Positions 12,363 through 23,237 of a stretch of 32,006 nt of DNA are shown here, piece by piece; the stretch's first letter is position 1, and every line of letters starts with the position of its first letter. This DNA comes from an uncultured Fibrobacter sp. (lineage in GTDB: Bacteria; Fibrobacterota; Fibrobacteria; Fibrobacterales; Fibrobacteraceae). The stretch is taken from positions 1 through 32,006 of the forward strand of contig CAMKNA010000027.1 of NCBI GenBank assembly GCA_946414075.1, given 5' to 3'. The notes beneath the pieces are model-generated. The model was not told where the DNA came from and did not search any database. It was given only the letters and a program-made list of their open reading frames with translations. A program made the position numbers and the translations under genes.

Positions 12363-12398
12363 AAAAAAGACCGTGCTTTTCGCACGGCCTTTTTTAGC
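12363..12398 (-). terminator. Intrinsic terminator at the end of the ExbB/ExbD/AgmX operon
   Basis: A 6-bp GC-rich stem (CCGTGC / GCACGG, with further outer pairs) and a 5-base loop are flanked by six A on one side and seven T on the other. It can therefore work on either strand. It sits 18 bases after the stop codon of the AgmX-like gene ending at 12416. Confidence 0.88.
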
Positions 12399-12415: not shown

Positions 12416-13354
12416 TTATTCAGAGAAGGTGAACGGAATGGTTACCGTGGTGTTACCGGACTTCACCTTGCTGAACTTCCAGCGACTAACGGCAGTCTTG
12501 ATTTCGCCATCAAACTCGCCGTAACCAGTGGTGGAAGAAGCAATGGAAATGCTGATAACTTCACCGCCCGGAGCGATCGTGAACTTCAGGGTAACCTTAC
12601 CCTGGAATCCCGGTTTCTTCTTCAGGAACTTGTTATAGATGTGGCGCAGACCCGGAGTACGCTGACGCACAACCTTCATGATGTCTGCAGCGGAACGAGA
12701 TCCACCACCGGCACCCATGTCGATATCGCGTTCAGACGGAGTCCTGATGGAGCCCTTAGCCTTGGTAGCGATACCACCGCCACCGCCGCCGAGAAGACCT
12801 GCCAGGCCGTCACCGATACCACCGGAACCACCTTCGGCATAACCTTCGTTAAAGCCACCATCAGCCTTACCGCGACGACCACCGAGAACGGTCTTACCCG
12901 TCGTCTGGAGGCCAGCCACGTCCTTCAGCACCTTGTCGATGTCCTTAGAGAACTTCTGGTTCTTCATAAGGTCGTATGCACCGGCAGATGCGTTCTTGGT
13001 CTGAGCAGTCAAGAGCTTAAGCACGCCACGAGTCTGGGGAGCGTTGGGCTGACCCTTACCACGCGGCTTGCCACCACCACCAGCCTTCTTACGAGGCTTC
13101 TTGGGCTCTTCCTTCTTCTTCTCTTCCTTCTTCTCTTCCTTCTTTTCATCGATGGTCATAGAAGCAGTAAGATCAGCAGCGGCAGAGTCGTCGAACACGA
13201 CTTCGTCCACCACCTGTTCGTACATGGAAGCCCAAAGGCAGATAGCCAAAGCTACGACTAAAGAGATACCGGCAATAGCACCCATCTTCTTGTCGGATTC
13301 CGGCATCAGGGACGCTACTAACGGATCCATTTCGGGAGTATTCTTTTTAGCCAT
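12416..13354 (-). CDS. TonB/AgmX-like energy-transducer protein
   Basis: A 312-residue protein likely to pass force from the ExbB/ExbD motor to periplasmic partners. It has a short cytoplasmic N-terminus and one membrane helix at about 25-44. A Lys/Glu/Pro-rich stretch follows at 70-92 (EKKEEKKEEKKKEEPKKP), then a Gly-rich linker at 156-220. The C-terminal domain at about 222-312, with GFQGKVTLKFTIAPGGEV and RWKFSKVKSG..TVTIPFTF, is of the TonB / AgmX-PglI C-terminal type. The ATG at 13354 is used because GAGGAA precedes it and it starts 2 bases after the second exbD stop. Longer upstream frame has no support. Last gene of the operon, followed by a strong terminator. The AgmX match suggests a Glt-like role, but classical TonB function is possible. 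Confidence 0.87.
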   Translation of the reverse strand: MAKKNTPEMDPLVASLMPESDKKMGAIAGISLVVALAICLWASMYEQVVDEVVFDDSAAADLTASMTIDEKKEEKKEEKKKEEPKKPRKKAGGGGKPRGKGQPNAPQTRGVLKLLTAQTKNASAGAYDLMKNQKFSKDIDKVLKDVAGLQTTGKTVLGGRRGKADGGFNEGYAEGGSGGIGDGLAGLLGGGGGGIATKAKGSIRTPSERDIDMGAGGGSRSAADIMKVVRQRTPGLRHIYNKFLKKKPGFQGKVTLKFTIAPGGEVISISIASSTTGYGEFDGEIKTAVSRWKFSKVKSGNTTVTIPFTFSE

Positions 13355-13356
13355 AA

Positions 13357-13851
13357 TTATTCCTCCCCTCCGTTCTTCTGCATAACGGCGAATGCAATGT
13401 GCGTGTAGCCAGAGAAGCCACAAGTGGCCATGACCTTATACATTGCATCGTAAGGGATGTTCTTGTCGATCTGCACAATGATGTTACCGGCTTCGTCAGC
13501 AGGAAGACCCATCTTGAGGGCGTGTTCCTGTTCCGTTGCGCGGCGTTCCTTAAGAACGGAGTCCACCTTGGTCACAAGAAGATCTTCTTGCTTCAAGACG
13601 TCTTCGGTAGGAACGATCTTTGCGTTATCGACCACAACGTAGTTGTTATCGACCACGACCGTCAGAGCCACTTCCTTCGGCTGCACCTTGGAGGTAGACA
13701 CCGGAAGGATGAGGTTTTCGGCCTGGGTCAAAAGCTGACCTTCAGCGTCCAAGTTCTTGATCATGAACACCAGAATAATGGTCATCATGTCCATCATGGA
13801 CGTCAAAGAGAAAGGTACGTCTTCGCTAAATTTACGAGTTCTTCTAGCCAT
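13357..13851 (-). CDS. exbD: ExbD/TolR-family proton-channel protein (with membrane Asp)
   Basis: A 164-residue inner-membrane protein that works with an ExbB/TolQ pentamer to turn proton flow into motion. It has a short cytoplasmic tail and one membrane helix at about 15-33 (SLTSMMDMMTIILVFMIK) containing Asp21. This is the position of the conserved proton-relay Asp of ExbD and TolR. A periplasmic domain of about 125 residues follows. It begins 2 bases after the stop of the upstream ExbD-like gene and is followed at once by the AgmX-like gene. It and its upstream neighbour both begin M-A-R, supporting a duplication within the operon. Confidence 0.9.
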   Translation of the reverse strand: MARRTRKFSEDVPFSLTSMMDMMTIILVFMIKNLDAEGQLLTQAENLILPVSTSKVQPKEVALTVVVDNNYVVVDNAKIVPTEDVLKQEDLLVTKVDSVLKERRATEQEHALKMGLPADEAGNIIVQIDKNIPYDAMYKVMATCGFSGYTHIAFAVMQKNGGEE

Positions 13852-13853
13852 GA

Positions 13854-14741
13854 TTAACCTCCCAGCTTAGCAAGGTTGATCTTGCTGAAACCGGCTTCTT
13901 TAGCGCGGTCCATAAGTTGAATGATCTTATCGAACTGGGTGTCGTCGTTAGCAACGATGATGATGTTATCGACGTCTTCGAGGTCAATGAACTGCGTATG
14001 GATCTGAATCAGGTCCTTAGCGATCAAGTCGTAAGCAGACAGCGGGTAGATGATGTTCTTTGCAGCCACATCCGGTTTCAGCGTACGAGCCGAGTTCGGA
14101 GTGAGGGTTGCAAGCACAGCGCCTGCGCTCGGCTTCTTGAGCATCGGCGGCGGGGTCAGACCCATAGCGCCTTCGCCAGGAGCAGCGAGGAATGCGTTGT
14201 TACCGTCCACGTATGCGCTGTCAGGCACATTTTCGGACTGAGAAGAATACACGGCCCAAATCACGCGGCCCGGGTCTTCTTCGGATTCCTTGTTGATGGC
14301 CCAGAGTTCGATGGATTCGATTTCATAAAGATACTTTTCTTTATCCATTTCGGATCCGTCTTTGCACTTGGGACCATGACCGCTTTCCACGGCCGACTTC
14401 ACATCTTCCGGCGCATACGTAATGAGCTGCGCATCGGACTTGCAACGGAACGTCCACATTTCCTTGAAGTAAACGTTCGGCTGGAAACCACCGCGGGCAC
14501 CGATCACCAGATATTCACTGGTAATAGCGAGCGAGAGGTTAAGAGCCTGCTGGTCCGGTTCCGGAGGAGTCTCGTTATCCATATTCATCATGCTGCGTTC
14601 CGGCATGTTGATTTCGACGATAGCGAGCTTAGAGAAGGCGGTCATAGACAACAGCATAGGAATCAGGATTGTGAACAAGCCCATCGCCGGCAACAGGTCC
14701 GGTTCTTCAGGCTTGGCTGGTTTCTTAAGTTGTCTTGCCAT
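13854..14741 (-). CDS. ExbD/TolR-like protein lacking the membrane Asp, with enlarged periplasmic domain
   Basis: A 295-residue paralog of the next gene. It has the same layout: short basic tail, one helix at about 16-36 (LLPAMGLFTILIPMLLSMTA), and a periplasmic domain. No acidic residue is inside the helix. Aligned from the start without gaps, residue 21 is Gly where the neighbour has Asp21. The periplasmic part is about twice usual ExbD size and contains two Cys (FRCKSDAQ, GPKCKDG) that may form a disulfide. The last 50 residues (VDNIIIVANDDTQFDKIIQLMDRAKEAGFSKINLAKLGG) resemble the normal ExbD/TolR C-terminal fold. It lies 39 bases after the exbB stop. Likely a structural partner of the proton-conducting ExbD rather than a proton relay itself; this is inference. 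Confidence 0.85.
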   Translation of the reverse strand: MARQLKKPAKPEEPDLLPAMGLFTILIPMLLSMTAFSKLAIVEINMPERSMMNMDNETPPEPDQQALNLSLAITSEYLVIGARGGFQPNVYFKEMWTFRCKSDAQLITYAPEDVKSAVESGHGPKCKDGSEMDKEKYLYEIESIELWAINKESEEDPGRVIWAVYSSQSENVPDSAYVDGNNAFLAAPGEGAMGLTPPPMLKKPSAGAVLATLTPNSARTLKPDVAAKNIIYPLSAYDLIAKDLIQIHTQFIDLEDVDNIIIVANDDTQFDKIIQLMDRAKEAGFSKINLAKLGG

Positions 14742-14780
14742 TTTTTTATAACTCCGTTAAAATTATCTCTCTGTTTTCGA

Positions 14781-15401
14781 TTAAGCGAGGGAGTTGATAA
14801 TCTTGAGGCCCTTTTCTTCCATTTCCTGGATGAGGCGTTCGGAGTTCATGTTGAGGAGGCCGACGATGACCAGAAGAGGCACAGCGGAGAGAAGGCCGAG
14901 GAGCGTAGTACCCATAGCGATAGCAATACCATCGGAAAGGGCCTTGGCACGTTCAGCAGCCGGCTTGTTAGCCACGGCATCGAAGGTGTAGATCAGACCG
15001 TAAATGGTGCCCATAAGTCCAAGCAACGTGGAGATGGAAGCCATAACCTGAATGATGCTGATATAACGAGTAAGACGAGGAGCTTCGGTCAGGAACACTG
15101 CGTCGCAAGCAGCGGACATGGTTTCGCGACCACCGTTACGGGCAGCAACGATTGCAGCCATCACGCGAGCGATCGGGAGCTTGGTTGCGTTGGCATAGCT
15201 GAGAGCTTCATCATAGCGCTGAGCAGAGATGTGAGTGCCGAACTTGGCCAAGAAATCCTTACGGCCCTTAGCGCTCTTCACCATGATGTAAAGGAAGCGT
15301 TCAACAGAGAAGCCGAGGCCAATCATGAACACCACGAGGATGATCCACATGAACTGGTAACCATCAGATTCAGGGCTGAAGGATTGAAGCATTTTAGACA
15401 T
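14781..15401 (-). CDS. exbB: ExbB/TolQ/MotA-family proton channel
   Basis: A 206-residue inner-membrane protein with three helices: about 17-37, 112-140 and 158-182. The family core is clear, with TLLGLMGTIYGLIYTF (125-140) and GIAIAMGTTLLGLLSAVP (158-175). These line the channel and hold ExbD/TolR. AAAGGAG lies 7 bases before the ATG. Two ExbD-like genes and an AgmX-like gene follow closely, so this is the stator core of the operon. One TolQ-type with two TolR-type genes mirrors the AglR-AglQ-AglS set of Myxococcus. Classical ExbB or TolQ function cannot be excluded. Confidence 0.93.
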   Translation of the reverse strand: MSKMLQSFSPESDGYQFMWIILVVFMIGLGFSVERFLYIMVKSAKGRKDFLAKFGTHISAQRYDEALSYANATKLPIARVMAAIVAARNGGRETMSAACDAVFLTEAPRLTRYISIIQVMASISTLLGLMGTIYGLIYTFDAVANKPAAERAKALSDGIAIAMGTTLLGLLSAVPLLVIVGLLNMNSERLIQEMEEKGLKIINSLA

Positions 15402-15547
15402 TAGTGTACTCCTTTAGAGTTGTTTTTTGGTTTGTTTTTTGAATTCTTAAGTTCATATTTATTTTTTTTAGAGCGTTTTAGGGAGTCTTGCCGCCGTAAA
15501 ACTTTATTTACAGCATGAAAAACACCCCTAAACCATCCAAAAGGCGA

Positions 15548-15571
15548 GGGAACCCTATGAACAAGGTTCCC
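15548..15571 (-). terminator. Hairpin between the large TPR gene and exbB (partial terminator or attenuator)
   Basis: A perfect 7-bp inverted repeat (GGGAACC / GGTTCCC) with a 10-base loop lies 20 bases after the stop of the 1279-residue TPR gene. On the minus strand it is followed by only a short T-run (CCTTTTGG), so termination would be partial. The rest of the 190-base gap up to exbB is AT-rich and no convincing promoter was found in it. Confidence 0.45.
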
Positions 15572-15591
15572 GTAAAATTGTTTTTACCGCA

Positions 15592-18500
15592 CTACTTTTT
15601 CTTCTTTCCCTTCTTTTTCGGGGCAGGAGCAGCAGCCGGGGCGGCCTCGGGTTCAGCACCAGATTCAGAAGCGCCTACTTCTTCACCTGCAGCACCGGCA
15701 GCGGAGGGAGCCGGAGCCATCTGAGCCTTCAGTTCAGCCAGTTCAGCCTTCAACTTTTCGTTCTCGGCCTTGGCTTCCTTGATAATATCGCGGTAGGTAT
15801 TGAGCTTTTCTTCCGGAGTCATGACTTCGGACTTGGAAATCTGCTCGATACGAGCCTTTGTCTTGAAGTATGCCGGGTCGGCAAACAAGGTAGACGGGTC
15901 GAACTTTTCGATCTTGGTGTTCAAGGTCTCATTGTTTTCGTCCATCTGCTTCAAGAGTTCGAACAGCTTGGCAGTCCACTGGTTATCGATACCGTAGTGG
16001 GCCGAAGCCTTAATACCGGTGGCGCACACAGGTACGGCAGCCTGCTTTGCAGCGTCGGACTTGTTGTTAAGTTCTTCGCGGTAGGCTTCCAAGTCTTCGT
16101 GAGCCATTTCGATAGCGTCTTCCTTGACCGCGCCTTCGTATTCAACATATTCCTTTACGATGGCAGCAGAGTCAGGCAGCGGAGCGTTGGCGAAAGCGTC
16201 AGCCACTTCGGCAAACACAGCGCACTGCTGGTAGTACATTTCGATATAGCCTTCTTCGGCCTGTACCACATCCTGGTTGTAGAAGCCCTGGTCACGAGCA
16301 AGGTCGATGTTCTTCTGGAAGATGGGGCGTGCCTGATCGTAGTAGGGAGGCAGCTGCTGCACGATAGTAATGCGTTCAGCAAACATCTCTTCTTCGCCCT
16401 TGGCGCTCTTTTCCTGTTCACGCACCTTGGTGGCCATGACCACGAAGAGCATACCCATCTTGTTGGTGGCACGGAAGGTCCACTTTTCAGATGCGTAAGA
16501 CGCAGACTTGGAGTAGTGGCCCATGGCGGCCTGCAGGATTTCCACCAACTTCTTGATGGTAGCGGCCTTTTCCTTTTCCTTGCCCTTCAGGACATAGGGG
16601 TCCATCTTGTTGTACTCATGTTCACCCAAATAGAAAGCCGCTTCTGCAGGAACACCCGGATCGGCGTTCTTAATCTGCAGACCGTACTTGTCGTAATTCT
16701 TAAGGGTCTGGTCATAATCGGCAACAGCCTTGTCCTCTTCCTTAAGTTCCATGTAGGCACGAGCAGCACCGATGTAGGCAGCGATCAGCTTTTCCTTGTC
16801 TTCGGTGTAGTTCTTAATGAAGAAGTGGTATTCCTTAGCAGCATCTTCCCACTTCTTGGCATTGGCATAGGCAACGGGAATGCTGAAGGCGGCATCCAGA
16901 GCGTAGGTGCTCTTGGGATAGTCATGGACCAGATCCTTGGAGCAGCGGATGGCTTCGTCGGTCATCTGGGCTTCGTCATAGCTCAAGCAGGCGCTATACA
17001 GGAAGCTGGGAGTCCGTTCATCCTTAGGATAGCGCTTGTAGGCCAATTCGTAGGTCACAGCAGCCTGCTTCTTGTCCGGGATGGAGTCGAAGGTCTGGGC
17101 AGCAAAACCGATAGCCTGGAAAGCCATAGAATCTTGCGGGAAGTTGTTGGTAATGAACAGGAAGGTCTGAGCAGCCTGACGGGGGTTACCGGCCTTCTTG
17201 TAGTTGCTAGCGGCACGCAAGATACCCTTGATAGTCAGGGACGAAGAAGCGTACTGCTTGGGCAACATCATAAATGTTTCAGCAGCCTGTTCGTTCTTGT
17301 TTGCCTTTTCGTAGGCAACACCAGCTTCGAACACGGCCTTGTCAGCGAAGGAAACCAGCGGGTAGCGCTTCACGAGAGCCAAGTAGGCAACAGCACCTTC
17401 TTCGTAGCGCTGGGCCTTAACAGCCTTTTCAGCCTTCTGGAAGAGCACGGCCGCAATAGCCTTCTCGATTTCCTTGGCCATGGAGTCGTTCTTAGTGGCC
17501 TTCACATCGTGATACTGCTTGTACAGCCATTCGAATTCCACCAAGGCTTCATCCAGCTGGTCAGATTCCAGCAAGGACTGAGCCAACATACGACGAATAA
17601 GCAAAATGTATTGGTGATCCGGATAGCGCTGCACCAGGTCGCGCAACACAGTCACAGCAGTCTTATACTGCTTAGCTTCGTAATGAACGATGGCAGCGTT
17701 ATAAGCAAGTTCTGCGGCTTCCTTGTTCTGACCAAACTTGGCCATGTACTTGTCCACCTGAGCGAAGTAAGCCTTTGTCTCTTCGCCGTTATAGGCCTTG
17801 GCGGCGTCACCACCATACTTCTTGGTCTTGGCGGCTTCGCGGGACTGGTCCATCATGAGCACAGCGTTGTACGCGGCTTCTTCCTTCTTCAGGAGTTCCT
17901 TATCACCCATGGGACGGCGTCCGTAACGGGTCGTATCGGAATCCACGATCCAGTTGAACATCTTGGCAGCGTTGGCAAACTGTTGCATTTCCTGGTAAAC
18001 CAGAGCCAAGTTGATGTGGACCCTGTATTCATCCCAAGACGGTTCCTTGGCGTAGCGCTTCAGGAACGCTTCGTAAGCCTTGATGGCTTCGGCATACTGC
18101 TTCTTGCCGGCTTCCAGGTCACCTTCCTTAGTGAGCTTGGCGGCACGAGCATGGTGGTACTGCGGAATATCGAGCATGGCACCACGAATTGCCGTTTCTG
18201 CGTTCTTCACCGATTCAGGATACTTCTGGTTCTTCTTGTACCAAGAAGAGTTACGGTCATAACGCTTCACCACCACATAGCGATGCTGTTGAGCTTCCTC
18301 GAACTTCTGCTGAATGATGAGGATTTCGATCATGGCAATATCAGCCAGAGGAGCATCGATATAGTCCGGGTTGATAGACATCAAGCGCTTGAAGGACTGC
18401 ACCGCTTCTTCGTTACGGTCGTGGTCCTTATTCTTCATACCAATACGATAGTACACGGAATCCTTGAAGGGAACCTTCTTGTCCTTCAAGAAAGCTTCAG

Positions 18501-19431
18501 CTTCGGCAACACCACCGCCTTCCAAGTCGGAGAAGGAGGCCGCCATGAAGTCCATAGCTTCTGCGCGCAAGTCTGCAGGGTATTTACCCTTGTCGGCACC
18601 GATGATGTAATCGTAGTACTTGACGGCAGCAGTTTCGTATTCAGCGATGTTGTAGTAAGATTCAGCCAAGTGGTACATGGCGAGAGCCGCTTCCTTACCC
18701 GTCAGGTTTTCGAAGCCAGTCACCTTCTTGTAAGCCTCAATAGCATCGCGGAACTTACGGTTCATAAAGTGGTATTCGGCTATACGGAGCCATGCCTTAG
18801 GCACAAGGCCGTTGTTCGGGAAGTTACGGACCAGGCGATCGCGGAGGCGGAAAGCCTTTTCGTCTTCGCCGCTAGCTTCCTGCACGGCGGCAGCCTGATA
18901 CAGCACCATGGGGGTCTTGTCTTCTTTGGGATACTTGTCGATGTATTCCAAGAAGTAGCCCAAGGACTTCTGGTGGTCGGCCTTCGGGAATTTGTCGATA
19001 TCAGCGCACTTGGCCGGCTTGTTATCGCGGTCGGCGCACCAAGCCACATCTTCTTCGTACTGGGCCTGTTTATCCAAGAAAAGCTTTTCTTCCAGCTGGA
19101 ACTGGTAGTGACCTAACTGCTGCAAGGCAGATGCACAACGCTTATTCTGCTTGCCCTTACAATTGTTCACCTGCTTTTCCCACTGCTGAATAGCAGAGCG
19201 CATGCCCTCTTCATCGAGACCGCCCGAACGGCAAGCCTGGGCAGCCTGGTTTTTGAGAAGCTTGTAAGAATTAGCGCAATCCTTATATTTCGCAGAGCCC
19301 TTTTCCATGGACTTGCACTTAGCATAGAGCTTCTTCGCTTCTTCAGTTTTATCCTTACAGGGATCAGAAGCGGCAAAGGATGTTCCCACTAGGGAAAGTA
19401 CCATCGCCGTTAAGAGTAAGATTCGTTTCAT
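15592..19431 (-). CDS. Large periplasmic TPR-repeat protein
   Basis: A 1279-residue secreted protein. The signal peptide MKRILLLTAMVLSLVGTSFA is followed by a Cys-containing N-terminal region (SDPCKDKTEEAKKLYAKCKS). From about residue 160 to 950 there are many tandem TPR and Sel1/YbgF-like helical repeats, for example KAWLRIAEYHFMNRKFRDAIEAYKKV and AELAYNAAIVHYEAKQYKTAV, indicating a long superhelical protein-binding scaffold. The last 150 residues include a coiled coil (ENEKLKAELAELKAQ), an Ala/Pro/Glu-rich linker and a basic tail KKKGKKKK. It follows the barrel-TPR gene after 46 bases. Likely a periplasmic bridge between the ExbB/ExbD motor and the outer membrane, by analogy with TPR proteins of Tol-Pal and Glt systems. 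Confidence 0.85.
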   Translation of the reverse strand: MKRILLLTAMVLSLVGTSFAASDPCKDKTEEAKKLYAKCKSMEKGSAKYKDCANSYKLLKNQAAQACRSGGLDEEGMRSAIQQWEKQVNNCKGKQNKRCASALQQLGHYQFQLEEKLFLDKQAQYEEDVAWCADRDNKPAKCADIDKFPKADHQKSLGYFLEYIDKYPKEDKTPMVLYQAAAVQEASGEDEKAFRLRDRLVRNFPNNGLVPKAWLRIAEYHFMNRKFRDAIEAYKKVTGFENLTGKEAALAMYHLAESYYNIAEYETAAVKYYDYIIGADKGKYPADLRAEAMDFMAASFSDLEGGGVAEAEAFLKDKKVPFKDSVYYRIGMKNKDHDRNEEAVQSFKRLMSINPDYIDAPLADIAMIEILIIQQKFEEAQQHRYVVVKRYDRNSSWYKKNQKYPESVKNAETAIRGAMLDIPQYHHARAAKLTKEGDLEAGKKQYAEAIKAYEAFLKRYAKEPSWDEYRVHINLALVYQEMQQFANAAKMFNWIVDSDTTRYGRRPMGDKELLKKEEAAYNAVLMMDQSREAAKTKKYGGDAAKAYNGEETKAYFAQVDKYMAKFGQNKEAAELAYNAAIVHYEAKQYKTAVTVLRDLVQRYPDHQYILLIRRMLAQSLLESDQLDEALVEFEWLYKQYHDVKATKNDSMAKEIEKAIAAVLFQKAEKAVKAQRYEEGAVAYLALVKRYPLVSFADKAVFEAGVAYEKANKNEQAAETFMMLPKQYASSSLTIKGILRAASNYKKAGNPRQAAQTFLFITNNFPQDSMAFQAIGFAAQTFDSIPDKKQAAVTYELAYKRYPKDERTPSFLYSACLSYDEAQMTDEAIRCSKDLVHDYPKSTYALDAAFSIPVAYANAKKWEDAAKEYHFFIKNYTEDKEKLIAAYIGAARAYMELKEEDKAVADYDQTLKNYDKYGLQIKNADPGVPAEAAFYLGEHEYNKMDPYVLKGKEKEKAATIKKLVEILQAAMGHYSKSASYASEKWTFRATNKMGMLFVVMATKVREQEKSAKGEEEMFAERITIVQQLPPYYDQARPIFQKNIDLARDQGFYNQDVVQAEEGYIEMYYQQCAVFAEVADAFANAPLPDSAAIVKEYVEYEGAVKEDAIEMAHEDLEAYREELNNKSDAAKQAAVPVCATGIKASAHYGIDNQWTAKLFELLKQMDENNETLNTKIEKFDPSTLFADPAYFKTKARIEQISKSEVMTPEEKLNTYRDIIKEAKAENEKLKAELAELKAQMAPAPSAAGAAGEEVGASESGAEPEAAPAAAPAPKKKGKKKK

Positions 19432-19477
19432 TATTCTCTATCCACCTATAATTTCTATAAAATGGGATGAACCCGGA

Positions 19478-21706
19478 TTACTCCAGGTCATCCAATTCCT
19501 CCAGTTCCTGAGCGGCACCGGAACCACCAGCACCTCCAGCCATCTTGGTCTTGACGGTTGCCAGAGTGAAGCCGGCGTCATCCAAAATACGCTTACGGTT
19601 GGATTCGAAGCGGTCACTCTGGATGGACCTTTGCGTAAACGCAGCGTAGTCTTCGATAGCCTGGTTGGCCTTGTCAAAGTCGGGCTTCAAAGCTTCGCGC
19701 TTGCTTTCCACACGAGGCGTGGGCAGCTGACGGGCAAGGTCAAGGGCCTTGACCTGCACAGAATCGAAGTCGTTCTGCATCGCTTCGTAAGCCTGGCGGG
19801 CACTGTCACGGGCGGCCACAGAAACCACCGGCTGTTCAGTGCGCTTTTCAGCCTGTTCCAGAGACTTCACGGCCTTGTTGTAATCCTTCTTGATGAAGTA
19901 GCAGTAACCCTGAACCAGGTAGGCTTCGGAAACCAGGAAGGATTCCGGAAGGTTGCTGATAATCCAGTTGGCAGGCTTCAAGGCCTCGTCGGGCTTGTTC
20001 ACCTTGAGGAAGGACCATGCAATGCCGAGCATAGCTTCGTCATACACGGGAGAACCCGGTTCCACTTGGCCGTACATCTGAGCGGCGGCAGCCACATCGG
20101 GCTTTTCACCAGAGAAGTAGATATGGCCGAGCTTCACCTTGGCGGCATCCTGCAGGTCGCGTTCAGACTGGTTGGAAACCGGCTGTTCCGTAATGTCGCG
20201 GAAGCAGTTTTCAGCTTCTTCCCACTTGCCCATACGGCTGTAGGCGATACCCATGGTGTAACGGGCGTAGAAGTAGTTGGCGTTACCGGGGAGAATGGCA
20301 GCGAGCAGGTCCACAGATTCCTGATAGAGGCCCTGTTCGAACTTAATCTGACCAGCAATATAGTCAGCGTCCGCCTTCACATCGCTCTTGCCGAACACCT
20401 GGACGATGTTCTGGTACTTGGCCATAGCGTCGGTGTACTTGCCTTCCTTATAGTCGATGTTCATCAACTGGAAGTGGTACTTGGCATTCTGTTCCGTTCT
20501 GGGATAGCGCTTGATAGCGTCTTCGTAAACGGCACGGGCAGCCTTGTGCATGCGGAGGTTTTCAAAAGATTTTGCCTTGTAGAAAGCGGCCTGGTCCACC
20601 AAGTGGAATGCAGGGTACTTAGTCTGAACCTTACCGAAGGCATAGGCGGCTTCCAAGAACTGACGGTTCAAGTAAAGACGCATAGCGGCACGGTAGTCGT
20701 TTTCAGGTTCGATCTTCAAACGACGGTAACGATCTTCGCCGATCTTCTCTTCACGAGTGTCACCGAAGCGGGTGGTGAGCTTCACGGCCCAGATAAAGCC
20801 ACGGTTCTTCTTGGCATAAAGATCGTCATGGGACATTTCCAAGTCAAGCTGCAGATAACGGAAGAAACTTACATCCTTCACATTAACCGTAGCGCCGGCA
20901 ACGGGATAGCCTTCCTTGGTGAAACGAAGACGAACACCCAAGTGCGGGGACAGGTAGTAGGTCACGGTGAAGCTTTCTTCCAGGTTCATGCCTTCACCAC
21001 CTTCCTCATCGTCGTGCATCACATCGATGATGGAAAGTTCGGCCTTGGCTTCGAGAGCGCGGTTAAGCCCACGATAGAACAAGGACAGGTTCAGGTTAGC
21101 GGGAATCTTGTACGCTTCGCTTTCCGTGAACAGAACCACTGTGGGCGCGTTTTCGTCTGCAGTGCTAACTGCAGGCTGAATGGCGTTTTGCAGAGCCAAG
21201 CCAACGAACAAGTCACCGAACTTGGAGGAAGAAAGCGGGTTCCAGCTCACACCAATGTCCGCACCGAAGGTCATGTGCTTCACTTCGTCGAACTGGTTGA
21301 TGTAGAGTATGGAAATGTCGACACCCAGGGCAACGCAGTGCAACAAGTTGTACGCATAGCCGAGCAAGAAGGCGAATTCGTCATAGGACTTGCCACCATC
21401 AATGGACGCACCGTTCTCGAAGAAGGAGAAGCCGATGGTGTGCTTGTAATCCATAGGGAATGCCAAACTAACATATTCCTGGCTAGCCTCACCGCTGATG
21501 GAGCTGAAGAAAGCAGCACTCACTTCCAGCTGGTCGGTCATGGCGATTCCAGCGGGGTTAACATACATGGCGGTATTGTTACTACCAAATTCACCGAACC
21601 AGTCGTTTTGCTGGTATTTGTGCGGGGAGTAGACTGCTTCAGCATACAGAGCGCTGGCAGCCACTGTAAGTCCGAGGACTGACGTTTTGATGAAACTAGT
21701 ACGCAT
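19478..21706 (-). CDS. Outer-membrane barrel (PorV/UPF0164-like) fused to TPR repeats
   Basis: A protein of about 742 residues. The signal peptide MRTSFIKTSVLGLTVAASALYA is followed by a barrel-like region to about residue 340. That region starts with NTAMYVNPAGIAMTDQLEVSAAF, the 'NPAG' pattern of PorV/UPF0164-type barrels. From about 350 to 610 there are TPR repeats, for example AAYAFGKVQTKYPAFHLVDQAAFYKAKSFENL. A helical acidic tail ends ELEELDDLE. Three ATG codons are in a row (21712, 21709, 21706). GGAG lies 3 bases from the first and 9 from the third, so the second or third is likely used. The OmpA gene stop is within 15 bases and its TAA overlaps the ribosome-binding site, implying coupling. 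Probably the outer-membrane docking part of the operon product. Confidence 0.85.
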   Translation of the reverse strand: MRTSFIKTSVLGLTVAASALYAEAVYSPHKYQQNDWFGEFGSNNTAMYVNPAGIAMTDQLEVSAAFFSSISGEASQEYVSLAFPMDYKHTIGFSFFENGASIDGGKSYDEFAFLLGYAYNLLHCVALGVDISILYINQFDEVKHMTFGADIGVSWNPLSSSKFGDLFVGLALQNAIQPAVSTADENAPTVVLFTESEAYKIPANLNLSLFYRGLNRALEAKAELSIIDVMHDDEEGGEGMNLEESFTVTYYLSPHLGVRLRFTKEGYPVAGATVNVKDVSFFRYLQLDLEMSHDDLYAKKNRGFIWAVKLTTRFGDTREEKIGEDRYRRLKIEPENDYRAAMRLYLNRQFLEAAYAFGKVQTKYPAFHLVDQAAFYKAKSFENLRMHKAARAVYEDAIKRYPRTEQNAKYHFQLMNIDYKEGKYTDAMAKYQNIVQVFGKSDVKADADYIAGQIKFEQGLYQESVDLLAAILPGNANYFYARYTMGIAYSRMGKWEEAENCFRDITEQPVSNQSERDLQDAAKVKLGHIYFSGEKPDVAAAAQMYGQVEPGSPVYDEAMLGIAWSFLKVNKPDEALKPANWIISNLPESFLVSEAYLVQGYCYFIKKDYNKAVKSLEQAEKRTEQPVVSVAARDSARQAYEAMQNDFDSVQVKALDLARQLPTPRVESKREALKPDFDKANQAIEDYAAFTQRSIQSDRFESNRKRILDDAGFTLATVKTKMAGGAGGSGAAQELEELDDLE

Positions 21707-21719
21707 CATCATCTACTCC

Positions 21720-23237
21720 TTATTTCATATCCGTGCGCTTGAATTCGATACGACGGTTCTGCGCACGCCCTTCGGGGGTTTTGTTGGAGGCCACCGGCTT
21801 GGAATCGCCCATACCTTCGGTCTCAATTCGACTTTCGGAAATGCCGTTTTCAACGAGGAAGTTCTTCACGGCAGCGGCGCGGTCTGCAGAAAGCTGTTTG
21901 TTCTTATCCTTGGAACCAACGTTGTCTGTATGGCCGACAATCTTGAATGTAGCTTCGGTAAAGGTTTCCATGATGTCCACCACCTTCATGAGGGAGATGT
22001 GGGAATCAGGAGTAATAGTAGCCTTGCCGGATTCGAAGTTCACGCCTTCGAGAACGAACACCTTCTTGGGCGGCTGCGGGACTTCATCCGGGCAACCGTC
22101 TTCATCCTTATAGCTGTTCGTAGTTTCAGCCTGTTCGGGGCAGAGGTCAACGCCCTTGCACACATGAGCAAAGTTGGGGAGCAAGCCCTTGGCTTCGACC
22201 CACGGATCGCAGAGACCGTCGCGGTCGTTGTCGGCATCCGGGCAGCCATCGTCATCCTGGTAACCGTCGAAGTCTTCAGCTTCTTCGGGGCAGTTGTCGA
22301 GGCCGGTGCAGACGCTTGCGTACTTGTCGGAAACGCCTTCTTCGGAAACCCACGGATCGCAAAGGCCATCGCCATCGGTATCCGGGTTACGGGTTTCTTC
22401 GACCACTTCTTCTTCCTTCACCAGTTCGGCGGCAGTCAGACCGATGTCGGCCTTGCCCTTACCGCGCTTGAGCATCGGCGAGGTGGACTGGCAGTAGAAG
22501 TTCGGCTGCGACAGCGAGTGGTTGATGAACTTCGGATCCAAAGAAACGTTCGTGCGGTTCACCTTGATGAACTGGTTGAACGGATAGTAGTTCTTGTAGA
22601 TGTTGTTGTATTCCACCTTCGTCTGACCGGCAGCCGGGTCAGCAAACACACCGTAGTAGTGGTTTTCCATAAAGATGTTGTTACGGGCGATAATGTTGGT
22701 CGGGCCCTTCAAAGCAAGGCCAGAGTAGCCGTTGCGGAGCACGACGTTCTGTTCGACGTAGGCATCGAGCGACTTCGCACCCCAGGCGAGAATGCCGGAC
22801 CAGCGGTTGCCATAGACCACGTTATTGCGGAGCCAAGGCAAGGAAATAAAAGCACCGATACCAGTTGCGTGGTTATCGATCACATAGCAATGATGAATGT
22901 AGGGAGCTGCGTTTTCGCAAAGGATACCTTCGAGACCGTTCCTCACTGTGAAGTGCGACATTTCGGCGCCCGAAGTACCCATGACGGTCGGACCTCGACG
23001 CCCACCATCAATGATGGTAGTCAAGGGGTCCTCGCCCTTGAGGACAACACCCATGATAAGGGTGATGTTTTCATTGTAAACACCGCGTTTGACAAGGATT
23101 GTATCCCCGGCATCCGCATTTCCGAGAGCATCAGCAATCTTTGCGAAATCGCCAGGCACGTTGATATTCTTTGCCATGGCGGTTCCAGAAAGAAGCATCG
23201 CCCCGGCCGTAATTAAGACCAGTTTCTTTAGGGTCAT
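21720..23237 (-). CDS. Beta-helix / thrombospondin-3 / OmpA-domain outer-envelope protein
   Basis: A 505-residue protein from the ATG at 23237, which gives a clean signal peptide (MTLKKLVLITAGAMLLSGTAMA); upstream frame from a TTG at 23255 is less likely. Residues about 25-255 form a right-handed parallel beta-helix of NosD/DUF1565 type (GDTILVKRGVYNENITL, NVVYGNRWSGILAWG). Residues about 283-385 hold two Asp-rich thrombospondin type-3-like blocks (DTDGDGLCDPWV, DDDGCPDADNDRDGLCDPWV), expected to bind calcium. Residues about 392-505 are an OmpA/Pal peptidoglycan-binding domain with GHTDNVGS, NKQLSADRAAAVKNFL and AQNRRIEF. First gene of the operon. Its OmpA end could serve the Pal role in a Tol-Pal-like system, while the beta-helix faces out or binds glycan. 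The surface placement is inference. Confidence 0.9.
   Translation of the reverse strand: MTLKKLVLITAGAMLLSGTAMAKNINVPGDFAKIADALGNADAGDTILVKRGVYNENITLIMGVVLKGEDPLTTIIDGGRRGPTVMGTSGAEMSHFTVRNGLEGILCENAAPYIHHCYVIDNHATGIGAFISLPWLRNNVVYGNRWSGILAWGAKSLDAYVEQNVVLRNGYSGLALKGPTNIIARNNIFMENHYYGVFADPAAGQTKVEYNNIYKNYYPFNQFIKVNRTNVSLDPKFINHSLSQPNFYCQSTSPMLKRGKGKADIGLTAAELVKEEEVVEETRNPDTDGDGLCDPWVSEEGVSDKYASVCTGLDNCPEEAEDFDGYQDDDGCPDADNDRDGLCDPWVEAKGLLPNFAHVCKGVDLCPEQAETTNSYKDEDGCPDEVPQPPKKVFVLEGVNFESGKATITPDSHISLMKVVDIMETFTEATFKIVGHTDNVGSKDKNKQLSADRAAAVKNFLVENGISESRIETEGMGDSKPVASNKTPEGRAQNRRIEFKRTDMK

Follow-up and report, generated by a model that had tools for sequence, protein, structure and literature searches.

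An aspartate-less ExbD partner in a Glt/Agl-type envelope operon of Fibrobacter suggests a proton motor with one site instead of two

The window analyzed here is the entire contig C27 (CAMKNA010000027.1; 32,006 nucleotides) of an uncultured Fibrobacter sp. (assembly GCA_946414075.1), whose genome is 82% complete. From 23237 down to 12416, its minus strand carries seven open reading frames (ORFs), which form an operon running from the outer membrane to a proton motor: P1 (beta-helix/OmpA), P2 (barrel-tetratricopeptide repeat [TPR] fusion), P3 (TPR), P4 (ExbB), P5 (ExbD1), P6 (ExbD2), and P7 (TonB/AgmX). The initial annotation had listed seven genes in this order on one strand, and the ORFs agree with it. 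It had also counted two ExbD/TolR-like proteins; both domains were recovered, but the annotation had overlooked that the first of the two lacks the transmembrane, proton-carrying aspartate (Asp). We favor, with moderate confidence, the interpretation that the operon encodes a Glt/Agl-type envelope machine with an unequal ExbD pair, likely driven through one proton site instead of two, because ExbD2 keeps the transmembrane Asp and ExbD1 has glycine in its place.

ExbD1 (13854..14741; 295 aa) and ExbD2 (13357..13851; 164 aa; Pfam 6.9e-15) both match the ExbD family. The slot that holds the proton-carrying Asp in AglQ-type proteins and in ExbD2 (Asp21, codon 13789..13791) is Gly21 in ExbD1 (codon 14679..14681), and Asp21 is, by sequence and alignment, the only Asp of the pair at this position. 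Conservation was examined in 34 Fibrobacterota loci, comprising the window and 33 regions hand-picked for spread from the matches of an ExbD1 search, which found 137 of 150 genomes of the phylum (84 of the 89 better ones), some through other proteins. The transmembrane Asp was present in ExbD1 of 0/34 and in ExbD2 of 34/34 aligned loci. Among the 120 ExbD1 homologues listed, none has Asp or Glu at slot 21, and Leu at +1, Leu at +5, Ile at +6, Pro at +7, and Leu at +9 are invariant; since the slot is without an acidic residue yet its neighbors do not vary, the helix is constrained and not decaying. Named homologues at 76–88% identity belong to Fibrobacter sp., and more distant ones to Fibromonas, Chitinispirillaceae, and Chitinivibrionales. 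The ExbB/TolQ/AglR-type proton-channel protein P4 (14781..15401; 206 aa; Pfam MotA_ExbB 1.3e-21) keeps Thr132 and Thr166 in all 34 loci, and the motor quartet P4–P7 was found together in every one of them using hidden Markov models (HMMs).

To look beyond Fibrobacterota, a Myxococcota-centered set was assembled from genomes reached via MglA and searched with an ExbB profile, so that selection was not by ExbD1. Matches were obtained in 149 of 188 genomes; loci came from the 30 best, and rank and contig size guided the choice of 40 regions, 11 of which centered on loci already in the set (duplicates were removed by sequence). Loci L153–L182 were read by eye only, and the useful ones were re-covered as L183–L190. 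Loci L183–L279, which include a few records not labeled Myxococcota (e.g., Nitrospirae L264, with Asp in both subunits), hold 94 distinct ExbB genes (HMM E<=1e-25), 83 of them followed by two ExbD ORFs. The pair count excludes the remaining 11, which had at most one called ExbD ORF; these 11 include Asp-less ExbD1 in L199 and L233 and Asp-bearing ExbD1 in L185 and L190. As shares of this selected sample, the ExbD1/ExbD2 states were D/D in 47 motors, N/D in 27, S/D in 6, G/D in 2, and D/A in 1. Therefore, 35/83 motors lack only the ExbD1 Asp, ExbD2 keeps its Asp in 82/83, and none of the 83 has lost both. The single reciprocal motor, L274 (G357:C257, ExbB at locus positions 1372-2157), retains Asp in ExbD1 and has Ala in ExbD2. 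Proline at +7 (Pro28 of the window, codon 14658..14660) goes with Asp loss: it occurs in 35/35 Asp-less and 0/48 Asp-bearing ExbD1 of the outside set. The natural residue at the empty slot is Asn in 39 of 69 Asp-less ExbD1 proteins (12 from Fibrobacterota and 27 from the other set). That no motor lacks both Asp, that only one is D/A, and that the proline co-varies all fit a single-Asp heterodimer. In a tree of ExbB (120 rows), the Asp-less label requires 3 changes, compared to 37 in shuffles.

The ExbB profile reaches Myxococcus genes with two ExbD genes behind them (5e-47, 3e-45). In the Myxococcus loci L186 and L187, the Asp of the first ExbD is residue 28, and in L186 both ExbD proteins carry Asp. 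Published work reports that AglQ D28N abolishes proton conduction and paralyzes the Myxococcus machine (PMC3858216); the ExbD1 slot therefore matters, because the Myxococcus Asp28 is the residue changed in that mutant. As a separate observation, Myxococcota have a second D/D motor family, which adjoins another D/D motor in a back-to-back arrangement (L189, L235, L240-L242, L244, L246, L249, L252, L254, L258, and L259).

Gene content differs between the two kinds of Myxococcota locus. Based on 48 large regions (18 with an Asp-less motor, 28 with a D/D motor, and 2 without a motor state), the P3 HMM matched 18/18 Asp-less vs. 1/28 D/D loci, and a separate long protein was found in 17 vs. 0, with scores of 9e-34 to 7e-125 in the Asp-less loci; in L229, cut by the contig end, the only match (3e-11) is an opposite-strand ORF of 272 aa. 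The P2 HMM, through its TPR half, matched 17/18 vs. 1/28 loci, with a separate long protein in 16 vs. 0 (in L232 the match is its P3), and the P2/P3 matches of D/D loci are ORFs of 281-284 aa. The same contrast holds for P7 (17/18 vs. 1/28), a GltE-like gene (18/18 vs. 2/28), a Wza-type polysaccharide-export gene (13/18 vs. 0/28), and a putative barrel gene (8/18 vs. 0/28), and P1 matched 1/18 vs. 4/28 loci. GltC-GltD-GltE-AglR-ExbD1-ExbD2-GltG-like clusters thus occur in Myxococcota, often adjoining polysaccharide-export genes. In L225 and L238, matches to GltC (best 4.9e-15), GltE (1.4e-24, 3.7e-31), and GltG (4.5e-50, 1.4e-37) all remained under strict cut-offs, and those to the AgmX/PglI domain (both loci) and Poly_export (2.1e-20, L225) exceeded theirs. 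Wza-type export-like genes lie just downstream of the Glt-like clusters at L225 15967-16575, L228 16026-16850, and L238 15505-16134, and in L225 an epimerase gene follows.

The Asp-less, Glt-like gene set is the 'core complex' described by Luciano et al. (2011), consisting of gltC, D, E, and G with aglR, Q, and S (PMC3169522). The same kinds of genes are clustered in both, but the passages of that paper mention no Asp-less subunit; it lists one Fibrobacteres member, which may be the present locus. Among the core-complex features, an AglR-type ExbB gene followed by two ExbD genes is present in 34/34 Fibrobacterota loci, P7 is a GltG-type protein with an AgmX/PglI domain (its GltG score is under the strict cut-off), and P3 is a long GltD-like TPR protein in the cluster. 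The operon resembles the Agl-Glt/Agl-Nfs system of Myxococcus xanthus (AglRQS, GltG/NfsG) in its ExbB with two ExbD-type proteins, its AgmX-type TonB-like protein, and its TPR proteins. Unlike that system, in which Asp is predicted for both AglQ and AglS (PMC9389320), its first ExbD is Asp-less; its GltC-like TPR protein also has a fused barrel, a beta-helix/OmpA protein is added, and a GltE gene is absent from the operon. Dissimilar axle-type pairs beside a TolQ-like gene are also described for vWA proteins with a TolR-like transpore helix (PMC12204202), but there both partners have a conserved Asp. The initial annotation had proposed a lineage-specific machine, which does not hold, because many Myxococcota loci have homologues of P3–P7 arranged in this order as well. 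Of the parts it had regarded as additions, P1 and the barrel half of P2 do look Fibrobacterota-specific among the loci compared. We found no description of an Asp-less ExbD partner in the titles and abstract openings of the open PubMed Central literature (supplements not covered), nor any mention in the available passages of motor-evolution papers. The literature covered also did not show the link of such a partner with core-complex loci or its occurrence in two phyla; what is already published is the cellulose link of the operon and that Fibrobacteres have a Glt-like core complex.

Under the favored interpretation, we infer that five ExbB (P4) subunits would surround an axle of one ExbD1 and one ExbD2, rotating so that the single ExbD2 Asp meets the five ExbB sites in turn. 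About 5 protons would then pass per revolution, instead of the ten stated for a 5:2 motor (PMC9389320), and the Pro-bearing ExbD1 helix would act as a passive partner. P7, being GltG-like, may pass the movement to a periplasmic TPR scaffold of P3 and the P2 TPR half; the P2 barrel would take it through the outer membrane, and the P1 OmpA domain would hold peptidoglycan. In Fibrobacter, the machine likely moves or holds complexes for surface adhesion and cellulases, and the likely cargo in Myxococcota is exported polysaccharide. In models of 5:2 proton motors, the two Asp sites are taken to be equivalent; for AglQ and AglS, PMC9389320 describes the choice between homo- and heterodimer as not known. 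In a widespread motor that F. succinogenes expresses, with Asp missing from only one of two tandem subunits and a co-varying Pro, that question becomes directly testable; if the proposal is true, the motor is an obligate heterodimer, its proton sites are halved in number, and its gear ratio differs.

Several observations weigh against this proposal. PMC9389320 cites a model in which MotAB turns only with both Asp residues protonated; together with the killing of a D/D motor by AglQ D28N, a single-Asp motor arising by simple loss is not expected to work. Conversely, if natural Asp-less/Asp motors work, the scheme in which both sites are protonated cannot apply. The ExbD1 helix (17-34) was modeled at low confidence (pLDDT, the per-residue model confidence, ~50), and the +7 Pro is present in 30 of the 34 Fibrobacterota loci and missing from four. 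The Asp-less state does not form one clade in the ExbB tree, where a D/D group is nested in the Myxococcota Asp-less group, which implies either repeated loss of Asp or its regain, and the root does not decide. The shares given above are not prevalences, because Fibrobacterota loci were picked by likeness to the ExbD1 of the window and the outside set was ranked by likeness to Fibrobacterota ExbB. Regarding the machine as a whole, P4–P7 stand without nearby P1–P3 in L054 and L055, and a GltE-like gene (phmmer with Myxococcota GltE) lies near the operon in 1/34 Fibrobacterota loci (L062). An Asp at -6 (Asp15), in 31/34 Fibrobacterota loci and 119/120 homologues listed, could also represent a shifted proton site in ExbD1, so that both subunits still carry protons; this seems very unlikely to us, because the position is Asn in the other three Fibrobacterota loci and is divided between Asp (15) and Asn (20) in the 35 Asp-less ExbD1 of the outside set.

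In the main rival, the axle is an ordinary ExbD2 homodimer with two Asp, and the one-helix protein ExbD1 has an accessory role outside the pore, such as that of an adaptor binding peptidoglycan or TonB. The Asp of ExbD2, kept in 34/34 loci and 82/83 motors, is what such a homodimer predicts, and the structure model gives ExbD1 a longer periplasmic part, with a strand-rich insert (~106-212) inside a TolR-like fold, as might suit an adaptor. Even so, we regard it as possible but clearly less probable than the unequal pair, given that the ExbD-type helix of ExbD1 is under strong constraint, that 47 related motors have Asp in both subunits, and that a fixed accessory role does not predict the D/A locus L274, where the other subunit is Asp-less.

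Other ExbB systems of the same genome bear on what the operon is. Six MotA/ExbB-family places were found, one in a Tol-Pal operon (L039) and four in the clusters L037 (7589-11908) and L038 (6864-11097). These two clusters contain ExbB-fusion, ExbB, ExbD, TonB-like, and TPR genes (the TonB and TPR labels by reading), and we take them to resemble Vibrio TonB2/TtpC systems. The best or expected models at L039 are TolQ (153.5 bits), TolR (80.8), TolB (316.3), Pal (119), and YbgF (51.3), all under strict cut-offs, with a TolA-like gene assigned by position. By reading of the sequences, the ExbD/TolR proteins of L037, L038, and L039 each have the transmembrane Asp. Tol-Pal and TonB-ExbB-ExbD systems share with the operon an ExbB/ExbD motor and an OmpA or TonB-type domain, but they have a single Asp-bearing ExbD/TolR gene per cluster and occupy separate clusters of the same genome.

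A divergent Tol-Pal system for outer-membrane integrity would account for the OmpA domain of P1, the YbgF match of P3 (127 bits vs. a 90-bit cut-off), and the weak matches of P4 and P6 to TolQ and TolR models. We consider it hardly credible, because Tol-Pal genes, including the TolA-like one, lie together at L039, albeit with scores under strict equivalog cut-offs, and P1 scores far under the Pal cut-off (59.8 vs. 125 bits). Tol-Pal identity was therefore rejected; neither TolB nor Pal is in the operon, and no TolB was recognized among its seven proteins. The resemblance to Tol-Pal and Agl-Glt drawn by the initial annotation thus narrows to Agl-Glt. Its statement that TolB and YbgF were unrecognizable stands for TolB and fails for YbgF, although the P3 match is, in our reading, a TPR cross-match. 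Solved-structure sequence searches (P4 at E<=0.001, P6 at E<=1) returned TolQ, ExbB, and ExbD chains, in addition to a TMH4C4 chain (4.9e-4) and YbgC (0.64), with no AglRQS entry among the matches listed.

The operon can also be traced to Fibrobacter succinogenes S85, where FSU_2396, 2397, 2398, 2400, 2401, 2402, and 2403 correspond to P1–P7 by order, names, and masses (here/S85, in kDa: P2 83.7/83.84, P3 145.1/146.67, P4 22.4/23.06, P5 32.5/32.44, P7 32.8/32.45), although the predicted isoelectric point of P3 differs (6.5 vs. 8.5). On cellulose, the abundance of all seven S85 counterparts is 1.2- to 1.73-fold higher (PMC6851124), FSU_2401 and FSU_2403 were detected only on cellulose (PMC4619616), and FSU_2396 and FSU_2397 are reported to occur in complex with cellulases (Arntzen et al., as cited in PMC6851124). 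The literature treats the S85 set as a cellulolytic surface complex (OmpA, TPR) and a separate importer, compared to one machine here. From the induction on cellulose, PMC6851124 proposes a TonB-type importer for FSU_2400-2403, and a TonB/ExbB/ExbD uptake system for cellodextrins would agree with the P7 score against the TonB C-terminal model TIGR01352 (45.2 bits; cut-off 27.1). We find this improbable for the operon: P7 scores higher with AgmX/PglI (NF033768: 81.1 bits, 4.8e-23, cut-off 40) and GltG models (62.8 bits, under the 650-bit equivalog cut-off), its neighbors are TPR scaffolds, no TonB-dependent receptor is among the seven (a genome-wide receptor search was not made), and ExbB-ExbD clusters that include a TonB-like gene exist twice elsewhere in the genome (L037 and L038). 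Because Agl-Glt/Nfs is known to transport surface polymers (PMC3858216), a surface cellulase or adhesion role is likely by analogy, which connects a set of Fibrobacter genes induced on cellulose with a family of machines that moves such polymers.

A more specific version, in which the Fibrobacterota single-proton-site motor replaced GldL-GldM in driving type IX surface display of cellulases, is doubtful. It arises from three observations. SprA was found in 21/21 relatives, including the genome of the window (G000:C7:27001-33570, a 2,281-aa frame), and in 18/18 other Fibrobacterota (39/39 in total), and in 0/8 Myxococcota genomes searched. GldL, GldM, and GldN searches each gave 0/21, but no positive-control genome gave a match either. 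Finally, P2 combines a PorV-type barrel with a GltC-like TPR arm, and both parts structurally resemble chains from type IX translocon structures. GldL-GldM is likewise a proton motor serving surface proteins, but neither family model matched P4–P6 at E<1.

The envelope-side proteins precede the motor genes. P1 (21720..23237; 505 aa from the ATG at 23237) is a secreted beta-helix protein with a C-terminal OmpA domain (Pfam: OmpA 1.3e-25, Beta_helix 2.2e-13); no model returned the TSP3 repeats that had also been assigned to it. P2 (19478..21712; 744 aa) is a TPR protein by domain search, and the structure model adds a predicted FadL/PorV-type barrel (~31-321) before the TPR superhelix (~331-735), consistent with the barrel-TPR fusion annotated earlier. 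In Myxococcota loci, the relative of its TPR half is the GltC-like protein, the shared match being to TPR nodes only: P2 does not match the GltC model at E<1, and its L225 counterpart is the protein that does so at 4.9e-15. P3 (15592..19431; 1,279 aa) is a secreted TPR protein by domain models, and its GltD likeness rests on position and a long TPR match, without comparison to M. xanthus GltD itself. P7 (12416..13354; 312 aa) has one helix and an AgmX/PglI (GltG-type) TonB-like C-terminal domain.

Using HMMs, P3 was present in 31/34 and P1 in 26/34 Fibrobacterota loci. P2 matched 31/34, but a separate P2 is present in 26, because the match is the P3 protein itself in L060, L062, L063, L064, and L066. 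The complete seven-gene set occurs in 26/34, supporting the gene set reaching from proton motor to outer membrane that the initial annotation described, and this clustering exceeds chance. Neither P1 nor a separate P2 accompanies P3 in L060, L062, L063, and L066; L064 and L067 stop near a contig end, and P7 of L072 is a fragment at a contig end that BLAST missed and the HMM found. Besides the operon, Fibrobacter ORFs of ~255-664 aa partly match ExbD1, mostly over residues ~140-291 at roughly 37-58% identity (e.g., G004:C7:189979-190416, G111:C12:29346-29783, and G086:C2:562-1005).

Between P3 and the motor genes lies a 190-bp gap (15402..15591, minus strand), the length of which varies among relatives; a scan found no promoter- or terminator-like site on its minus strand. 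Promoter-like matches in the region did not exceed shuffles (9 found vs. 9.6 expected) and are given no weight here. The operon closes with a minus-strand intrinsic terminator (12363..12395; 14-pair stem and T tail), as annotated, but an eighth gene just past it had been missed. P8 (11001..12293, minus strand; 430 aa, with a signal-like start) adjoins P7 in 28/34 Fibrobacterota loci (HMM); it matched no Pfam family and is a putative outer-membrane protein in our reading. The plus-strand ORFs opposite the operon are very long (up to 1,039 aa; e.g., window 15997-19116) and are probably shadows of the coding strand.

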